DNA of 39,903 nucleotides from Allosalinactinospora lopnorensis (GTDB lineage: Bacteria; Actinomycetota; Actinomycetes; Streptosporangiales; Streptosporangiaceae): contig NZ_LAJC01000057.1 in NCBI RefSeq assembly GCF_000981225.1, forward strand, positions 1 to 39,903, written 5' to 3'. Position 1 is the first letter of the stretch; each line of letters starts with the position of its first letter. Shown piece after piece: positions 35,690 to 39,183 of the stretch. The translations under genes were made by a program, and so were the position numbers. The notes beneath the pieces are model-generated. The model was given only the letters and a program-made list of their open reading frames with translations. It searched no databases and was not told where the DNA came from.

Positions 35690-36781
35690 TCAGCGCCCGC
35701 CGAGCCTCGCCCGCACGTCGCGGGCGATCTTGATGTCCTCCCTGGACGTGATGACGAGGGTGCGGACGAAGGCGGCCGGCCCGGTGATGTCGGCGTCGGC
35801 CCTGGCCGCGTCGTTGGCTTCGGGATCGAGCCCGACGCCGAGGAAGCCGAGCCGCTCGGCGGCGCCCGCGCGGACCACCGGCTGGTTCTCGCCGACCCCG
35901 CCGGTGAACACGAGGGTGTCGATCCCGCCCAGCGCGGCGGCCATCGCGGCGATCTTCGCGCGCAGCCGGTGCAGGTACACGTCGAGGCCCAGGACGCAGT
36001 CGGCGTCGCCGCCCTCCGCCCGCCTGACAACGTCGCGCATGTCGGAGGTCCCGGTCAGCCCGGCGAGACCGCCGTGCCGCTCCAACCCCTCGGCGACCTC
36101 CTCCGCGCCGAACCCGGCATCGCGCAGCAGCCACAGCACCAGTCCCGGATCGACGTCGCCGCTGCGGGAGTTCATGACCAGCCCCTCAAGAGGGGTGAAC
36201 CCCATGGTGGTGTCGACGCACCGGCCCCTGCGGACGGCCGCCAGGGACGCTCCCGCGCCCAGGTGGGCGGTGACCAGCCGCCCCGGGTCCCCGCCGAGCA
36301 TCTCCGCGGCACGCCGAACCGCGTAGGCGTGCGAGATGCCATGGAACCCGTAGCGGCGCAGCGGGTACCTCTCCCGCCATTCGCGCGGGATCGCATACGT
36401 GGCGGCCTCGGGCGGGAGGTTCACGTGGAACGCCGTGTCGAAGCACGCGGCCTGGGGCGTCTCGGGCAGGACCCGCCGCATGGCGTCGATCCCGGACAGC
36501 GCCTTGGGCTGGTGCAGCGGGGCGAGGCCGGTGAGACCGCGCAACCGCTCCACGGTGCCGTCGTCGAGCACGGCGGCACCGCTGAACTCGCCGCCGCCGT
36601 GTACGACCCGGTGGCCGACGGCGTCGACCCCGGAGAACCCCTCCACCGCGGCGGCCAGCTTCTCCTCGGAGACGGCCCCCTCGTCGAGCGGCGGATCCTC
36701 CCGGCACAGGAGCTCGTCATCAGGGCCGAGCAGGCGGAGCTTCACACTGCTCGACCCGGTGTTCACGACCAGCACCCGCAT
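35690..36781 (-). CDS. ackA: Acetate kinase
   Basis: 363 residues, ATG 36781 with GAGGAGG eight bases upstream. ASKHA-fold features: VLVVNTGSSSVKLRLL (phosphate 1), GHRVVHGG, FDTAFH, RYGFHGISHAY, TAHLGAGASL, and FTGGVGENQ. It converts acetyl phosphate plus ADP to acetate plus ATP. It lies 28 bases after xfp on the same strand, so the acetyl phosphate source is the phosphoketolase, not phosphotransacetylase. It is slightly shorter than the E. coli enzyme (400) but all motifs are present. Confidence 0.95.
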   Translation of the reverse strand: MRVLVVNTGSSSVKLRLLGPDDELLCREDPPLDEGAVSEEKLAAAVEGFSGVDAVGHRVVHGGGEFSGAAVLDDGTVERLRGLTGLAPLHQPKALSGIDAMRRVLPETPQAACFDTAFHVNLPPEAATYAIPREWRERYPLRRYGFHGISHAYAVRRAAEMLGGDPGRLVTAHLGAGASLAAVRRGRCVDTTMGFTPLEGLVMNSRSGDVDPGLVLWLLRDAGFGAEEVAEGLERHGGLAGLTGTSDMRDVVRRAEGGDADCVLGLDVYLHRLRAKIAAMAAALGGIDTLVFTGGVGENQPVVRAGAAERLGFLGVGLDPEANDAARADADITGPAAFVRTLVITSREDIKIARDVRARLGGR

Positions 36782-36809: not shown

Positions 36810-39183
36810 TCAGCCGCTCCACGTCCAGTCGCGGATGTCCGGCGCGTCCTCGCCGTACTCGCGGGTGTGGGTGCGGCAGCGCAACCGCTCGTCCTGCATC
36901 CGCTGGCGCAGGTGCGCGGCCCTGACCCCGAGGCCGGGCAGCCGGTCGATCACGTCCATGACCAGGTGGAAACGGTCGAGGTCGTTCAGCATGAGCATGT
37001 CGAACGGCGTGGTCGTCGTCCCCTCCTCCTTGTAACCGCGCACATGGAGGTTGTCGTGGCCGTTGCGCCGGTAGGTGAGCCGGTGGATCAGCCACGGGTA
37101 ACCGTGGAACGCGAAGATCACCGGCTTGTCCACCGTGAACAGCGCGTCGTACTGGCGCTCGGTCATCCCGTGCGGGTGCACCTCGGCGGGCAGCAGCCGC
37201 ATCAGGTCGACCACGTTGACCACCCGCACCTTCAGCTCGGGCAGGTGCTCCCGGATGAGCCCGGCCGCGGCGAGCGTCTCCCGGGTCGGGGCGTCGCCCG
37301 CGCAGGCCAGCACCACGTCGGGTTCGAAGCCGGCGTCCGTGCTGGCCCACTCCCAGATGCTCGCTCCGCGGGTGCAGTGCGCGACCGCCTCCTCCATGCT
37401 CAGGTAGCTGAGCGCGGGCTGCTTGCCCGCGACGACCACATTGATGGTGTCGCGCATGCGCAGGCACCGGTCGGTGGTCACGAGCGCGGAGTTGGTGTCG
37501 GGCGGCAGGTAGACCCGGATGATCCCCGGTTTCTTGTTCATGACGTGGTCCAGGAAACCGGGGTCCTGGTGGGTGAACCCGTTGTGGTCCTGCTGCCACA
37601 CGTGCGAGCTGAGCAGGTAGTTGAGGGAGGCGATGGGGCGCCGCCACGGCAGCTCCCGGGCGACCTTGAGCCATTTGGCGTGCTGGTTGAACATCGAGTC
37701 CACGATGTGCACGAACGCCTCGTAGCTGTTGAACAGCCCGTGCCTGCCGGTCAGCAGGTAGCCCTCCAGCCAGCCCTGGCACAGGTGTTCGCTCAGCACC
37801 TCCATGACCCGCCCGTCGCGGGAGAGGTGCTCGTCGGTCGGCAGGAGCTCCGCGTCCCAGGCGCGGCCGCTCACCTCGAAAACGGCGTCCAGCTTGTTGG
37901 AGGTGGTCTCGTCGGGCCCCATCATCCGGAAACTGCGCGGGTTGGCCCGGATCACGTCGCCGATGTACCCGCCAAGAACCTTCGTGGCCTGGTGGCGCGT
38001 CTTCCCGGGTTCGGGCACCTCCACCGCGTGGTTCCGGACGTCCGGCAGGCTCAGGTCCTTGAGCAGCAGCCCGCCGTTGGCGTGCGGGCTGGCGCTGATC
38101 CGGCGCTCGGGTGCCGGAAGGGGCGCGGTGACCTCCGGCAGCGGGGCTCCGTCGGAGTCGAAGAGTTCCTGGGGCCGGTAGGAGCGCATCCACGACTCCA
38201 GCATCCTCCGGTGCTCCGGGTCGTCGTGGACCCGGGGAAGGGGGATCTGGTGCGACCGCCACGTCCCCTCGACCGGCAGGCCGTCCACCTCCGCCGGCCC
38301 GGTCCACCCCTTGGGAGTGCGGAGTACGATCATCGGCCAACGGGCGTTCTCCGCGGTACCGCCCTCCCGGGCGCGCCGCTGGACGGCCGCGATGTCGTCG
38401 AGTGCCGCGCCGAGGGCGCCGGCCATCGCCTGGTGCATCGCCTCGGGCTCGTCGCCGGAGACCACGTAGGGCCGGTAGCCGTTGCCTCCATGAGCGCGAG
38501 GAGGTCCGACTCGGGTATGCGCGCTAGGAGGGTCGGATTGGCGATCTTGTACCCGTTGAGGTGCAGGATCGGCAGCACGGCACCGTCCCGCGCGGGGTTG
38601 GTGAACCTGTGCGACGGCCAGCTTCCGGCCAGAGGGCCGGTCTCCGCCTCCCCGTCGCCGATGACGGCGGCCACGACGAGGTCAGGGTTGTCGAAGGCCG
38701 CGCCGTGGGCGTGGGCGAGGGAGTAGCCGAGCTCTCCCCCTTCGTGGATGGAGCCCGGGACCTCCGGCGCGATATGGCTGGGAACCCCGCCGGGAAAGGA
38801 GAACTGCCGGAACAGCTTGCGCATCCCCTCGGTGTCGCGTGTGACGTTGGGATAGATGCCGGTGTAGCTGCCGTCGAGCCATGCGGTGGCCACCGATCCC
38901 GGCCGCCGTGCCCGGGGCCGACGACCCACATCATCTCGGTTCCGCGGCTTTTGGCCTGGTAGGACAGGTGCGTGTAGACGAAGTTGAGCCCCGGCACCGT
39001 CCCCCAGTGCCCGAGCAGCCTCGGTTTGATGTGCTCGACTCGCAGCGGTTCCCGGAGCAAAGGGTTGTCGAGCAGGAAGATCTGGCCGACCGAGAGGTAG
39101 TTGGCCGCCCGCCAGTACAGATCGATCCGGTCGAGTTCCCCACTGTCGAGCGAGGCTCCGGGACGCGCTTCCGTCGCCGTCAT
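36810..39183 (-). pseudogene. xfp: Xylulose-5-phosphate/fructose-6-phosphate phosphoketolase, interrupted by two single-base frameshifts
   Basis: The gene spans ATG 39183 (GGGGGAAGC just upstream) to TGA 36810. Three frames are needed. Frame one gives the start through VVGPGHGG. Frame two resumes at [17 protein letters not shown], and includes the thiamine motif [19 protein letters not shown] and [17 protein letters not shown]. Frame three resumes at [15 protein letters not shown] and runs to the end. One missing base near 38901-38902 (GG in the run before CCGCC) and one near 38485-38486 (CC in TTGCCTCC) restore a single frame: 2374 bases plus two equals 792 codons, 791 residues, the family's normal length. 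As written the gene gives no full enzyme. Both losses are in short G/C runs, so sequencing error is as likely as real decay. Xfp splits xylulose 5-phosphate or fructose 6-phosphate into acetyl phosphate and an aldose phosphate, feeding AckA. Confidence 0.85.

Follow-up and report, generated by a model that had tools for sequence, protein, structure and literature searches.

In the 39,903-nucleotide stretch of Allosalinactinospora lopnorensis DNA that we analyzed (the window), a phosphoketolase gene, xfp, runs on the minus strand from position 39183 to position 36810 and is spread over three reading frames by two breaks, at each of which the assembled sequence is one base short. Very probably both breaks are sequencing or assembly artifacts with no real feature behind them. 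The organism would then carry an ordinary intact xfp-ackA pair, in which phosphoketolase would convert sugar phosphates to acetyl phosphate and acetate kinase (AckA) would use acetyl phosphate to give ATP and acetate. At each site, a base-calling or assembly error would have removed a single C or G from a short run, in a draft that carries many one-base losses of the same kind. We infer error at these two sites, and with it a working enzyme, from the breaks themselves, the read-through frame in related loci, a genome-wide excess of one-base losses, and assembly figures that match those of a published Ion Torrent assembly.

Taken together, the three xfp pieces give a full-length match to the XFP family, although the assembled gene lacks the continuous frame of that family and no single piece reaches the curated cutoff of 962 bits for NF003619 (the largest scores 961.3). 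None of the three contains an internal stop, GC content by codon position is coding-like in each, and GDGE and GHGG stretches are present in their translations. The PDB relatives of the product include 8io8 and 3ai7, and the 8io8 phosphoketolase aligns with piece 3 over 2-555 (E 7.3e-220). The initial annotation had read the three frames as a complete 791-residue enzyme if one base is added at each of two sites about 415 bases apart, and both the profile matches and the spacing of the pieces in relatives fit that reading. It had also placed the breaks in short homopolymers, and at both (near 38901 and 38485, with 1 base missing at each) the window has a CC or GG run. The XFP_N family, searched against the whole genome, matched only the three pieces and, at that sensitivity, revealed no second xfp copy.

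Table 1. Positions of the xfp pieces, the breaks, ackA, and frame switches elsewhere (window positions unless a locus is named)
Feature	Location	Strand	Evidence or remark
xfp piece 1 (ATG start, 93 N-terminal codons)	38905..39183	-	NF003619 9-95/799; GC3 0.87
xfp piece 2 (140 codons)	38486..38905	-	NF003619 97-234/799; GC3 0.89
xfp piece 3 (C-terminal 557 codons + stop)	36810..38483	-	NF003619 238-795/799; GC3 0.95
Break 1, one base fewer than relatives, short C run, region coding conserved GPGHGGP	38895..38908	-	Spacing vs 97/97 relatives; sequence context
Break 2, one base fewer than relatives, short G run	38480..38490	-	Spacing vs 97/97 relatives; scan switch at 38485
ackA, acetate kinase, one open frame	35690..36781	-	TIGR00016, 346.6 bits vs cutoff of 293.4
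Split recG (RecG 15-138, then 176-715)	L157:8672-10770		Apparent one-base loss
Split acetolactate synthase large subunit (91-242, 247-611)	L160:11445-13018		Apparent one-base loss
Split trpE/G fusion (anthranilate synthase 9-594, 599-722)	L165:3278-5460		Apparent one-base loss
Split glgB (GlgB 2-331, 334-618)	L162:6621-8815		Apparent one-base loss
Split isocitrate lyase (27-231, 237-428)	L164:5546-6747		Apparent one-base loss
Tight frame switches in single-contig relative G021	Loci L108, L109, L202, L203, L205, L206, L211

We compared xfp with 99 related loci, 80 of them from a genome collection, fetched with piece 3 alone, and 19 found with the whole DNA stretch as the query; these loci are best matches and a subset of all relatives. 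All three pieces were present in 97 of the 99, and in every one of those 97 they formed a single unbroken frame, and at each site their spacing exceeded that in the window by exactly one base. In DNA alignments to relatives, for which 19 loci were supplied, the matches listed placed a net shortage of 1 base in the window near 38900-38905 and 38484-38486. The comparison with close relatives that the initial annotation had proposed as a check thus came out in favor of read-through, with one more base at each site. Judged from the frame and spacing in the 97 loci, the breaks are private to the window's assembly among the loci compared.

That three frames jointly encode a complete phosphoketolase speaks for programmed ribosomal frameshifting, by which the full enzyme would be made from the sequence as assembled. 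However, two separate programmed shifts would be required, the relatives need none, and in the sampled genome unrelated genes show switches of a similar kind. We rejected this explanation, which is so improbable as to deserve almost no weight, on finding a conserved shift site at neither position in any relative (0 of 97).

The condition of the three pieces bears on whether xfp is instead a real and recent pseudogene, with two true one-base losses, no phosphoketolase, and an AckA left for acetate activation only. In the assembled sequence the frame is truly broken at both sites, and a break at either alone would inactivate the enzyme. The pieces are nevertheless open throughout, and their dN/dS values against the nearest relative are low (0.24, 0.14, and 0.23, with 0.32 for ackA), so that neither the relaxed constraint nor the extra lesions of a pseudogene were found. 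The lost phosphoketolase route that the initial annotation had raised therefore draws no support from the pieces, which show coding constraint. Such dN/dS values are as in a working gene; as far as the sequence can tell, open pieces with low dN/dS would also be expected of a very recent real pseudogene, in which the rest of xfp would keep looking constrained. Weighing this together with the ackA and genome-wide evidence below, we consider a real pseudogene unlikely.

The adjoining ackA gene, as annotated, is intact, and it starts 28 bases past the xfp stop on the same strand. Its best stretch on TIGR00016 covers profile positions 83-400 of 405. AckA has 363 residues, and relatives align over most of its codons (for example, 357 of 363 in locus L085); it looks like a short form common to relatives, not a truncation. 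In at least 38 of the 99 related loci, some of which end before ackA, the gene lies no more than 400 bases downstream of xfp. No phosphotransacetylase gene (pta, TIGR00651) was found in the genome, so that xfp is the only acetyl-phosphate source identified in a search confined to xfp and pta. This counts against a pseudogene, in that the intact ackA next to it would have xfp as its partner. The suggestion that AckA has no local source of acetyl phosphate accordingly holds in part: pta was not found and xfp is the only source identified. Had xfp been recently lost and ackA kept in a genome lacking pta, AckA would be working without its usual partner, an outcome that we think improbable.

To compare the window's genome with those of relatives, we used a hidden-Markov scan of codon usage by frame that seeks an abrupt same-strand change of frame with no end of the upstream frame close by. 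The scan covered 839,903 bp of this genome (14%), 831,077 bp of the nearest relative (G006), 440,000 bp of the single-contig relative G021, and 80,000 bp of G023 and G008 together. The sample of this genome was nonrandom, consisting of the window, the first 20 kb of contigs 1 to 20, and more stretches of contigs 1 to 3, and G006 was sampled in much the same way. We called a switch tight if no more than 12 bases lay between the coding stretches, a limit set after the first listing had been seen. This genome had 45 tight switches (41 one-base losses and 4 gains), against 2 in G006, one of them a one-base loss (binomial P of 1.6e-11 for 45 versus 2). G021 had 7, 6 of them one-base losses, which is more than in G006 and fewer than in the window's genome; G023 and G008 had none. 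One-base losses thus made up 41 of 45 tight switches here, compared with 1 of 2 in G006 and 6 of 7 in G021. Loose switches were alike in number (24 here and 28 in G006) and are expected to be mostly ordinary gene ends. Without the 12-base limit, 69 switches passed in this genome and 30 in G006, and before filtering, same-strand frame changes numbered 147 and 115. Of the xfp breaks, the scan classed that at 38485 as tight and that at 38906 (gap of 26) as loose.

The finding of 41 tight one-base losses in 14% of this genome, against 1 in a similar length of the nearest relative, gives a high prior probability to error and argues against a real pseudogene. It also suggests that the whole genome holds several hundred one-base breaks, about 430 by a rough estimate. 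The fault that the initial annotation had entertained for "this region" was thus drawn too narrowly, since one-base losses are spread over the sampled genome. Over about 78 kb of each genome, an earlier comparison based on homology of open frames counted 10 switches here against 19 in G006, a result that at face value does not favor error. It was set aside as uninformative, since spurious switches arose in either direction from the xfp breaks themselves and from the long shadow frames of GC-rich DNA.

Some observations stand against error. Control genome G021 itself has a moderate switch count (7 in 440,000 bp), and even the estimated error rate would seldom put two breaks into a single 2.4-kb gene. 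That rate, 0.073 one-base losses per kb, gives 0.17 expected in xfp and a probability of 0.013 for two or more; as the scan found 112 of 168 simulated one-base losses in G006, under a wider filter, the corrected rate is rough. Despite the value of 0.013 for a named gene, many two-break genes are to be expected among about 5,600 genes. Moreover, the sample holds 10 neighboring same-strand switch pairs less than 1.3 kb apart, the xfp pair included, which implies that errors cluster. At L132:1-5511, about 5 kb contains five passing switches, and a stretch of 1.2 kb around an aldehyde dehydrogenase gene holds three of the five.

Genes split elsewhere in the same genome were tested against NCBIfam families at 25 of the 40 tight one-base-loss switches besides xfp, the 4 one-base gains being outside the test. 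At 20 of the 25, both sides of the switch fit successive parts of one family. The families matched in this way included HsdR, FadD11, CstA, NuoF, BluB, aldehyde dehydrogenase, an ABC exporter, RtcB, thiolase, and CynX, and further split genes are given in Table 1. A Hel308-like helicase (L167) is also among the 20, with about 100 profile positions unmatched between its pieces. For the remaining five (L113 at 17181, L128 at 1361, L155 at 14575, L159 at 14133, and L163 at 13996), the thresholds used yielded no family common to both sides. A split was also seen in a MurJ-like gene; since its score is far below the family cutoff, we make no claim that an essential gene is broken. The essential 3.7-kb rpoC gene is unbroken, so errors are not everywhere; this result neither helps nor hurts the case for error.

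The two xfp sites could also differ in origin, with an error at one and a genuine mutation at the other, or run length could vary within the culture. No data link the two sites, which leaves room for such a mixture, but they are alike, each lacking a single C or G at a two-base run, and both fall within the genome-wide class of errors. We regard a mixed origin as very improbable, well below a real pseudogene in likelihood.

A probable source of error at both sites lies in the assembly's origin. The window belongs to an assembly of 5,892,467 bp, split into 220 contigs, the largest of 231,302 bp. According to the genome report for A. lopnorensis CA15-2T (PMC4749953), the assembly of that strain came to about 5.89 Mb in 233 contigs, the longest being 231,302 bp; Ion Torrent sequencing was used for both libraries and Newbler for the assembly. 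The accessions given there are sample SRS881470 and BioProject PRJNA278354. GC content is 69.86% in the sampled genome, and the report gives 69.61% (PMC4749953). From these matching figures we infer that the window's genome is the published Ion Torrent assembly of CA15-2T. The main text of the report makes no mention of frameshift, homopolymer, indel, pseudogene, or phosphoketolase (PMC4749953). Together with the excess of one-base losses over two control genomes, the match to an Ion Torrent assembly strongly favors the sequencing or assembly fault that the initial annotation had offered as the alternative to gene loss.

The error profile described for the Ion Torrent PGM (PMC3623719) includes a class of strand-asymmetric high-frequency indels, 82% of which are in runs of two to three and among which C and G deletions dominate. 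In Ion Torrent reads overall, insertions outnumber deletions, and only 29% of all high-frequency indels are in homopolymers (PMC3623719), so that the xfp sites fit one class of the errors reported there. At both xfp sites, to which this observation is confined, a C or G is lost in a short run.

For this draft, the practical consequence is that calls of gene loss or of pseudogenes are untrustworthy without the reads. This bears on pathway reconstruction and gene counts for the strain and on scans that read drafts made from similar data.

Compared with known systems, the breaks resemble Ion Torrent PGM deletion errors, as set out in PMC3623719, in that a single C or G has dropped out of a run of two to three bases; strand asymmetry, the other mark of those errors, is a feature of reads, whereas the window is known from its assembly alone. 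Relative to XFP-family phosphoketolases (the NCBIfam PRK05261.1 group, NF003619; Pfam XFP_N, PF09364), the pieces jointly span positions 9-795 of 799 in order, and the window's sole difference is a shortage of one base at each of two places in the assembly. The arrangement is that of the xfp-ackA pair of actinobacteria and others, with the same order and strand, ackA directly after xfp, and nothing notable that differs.
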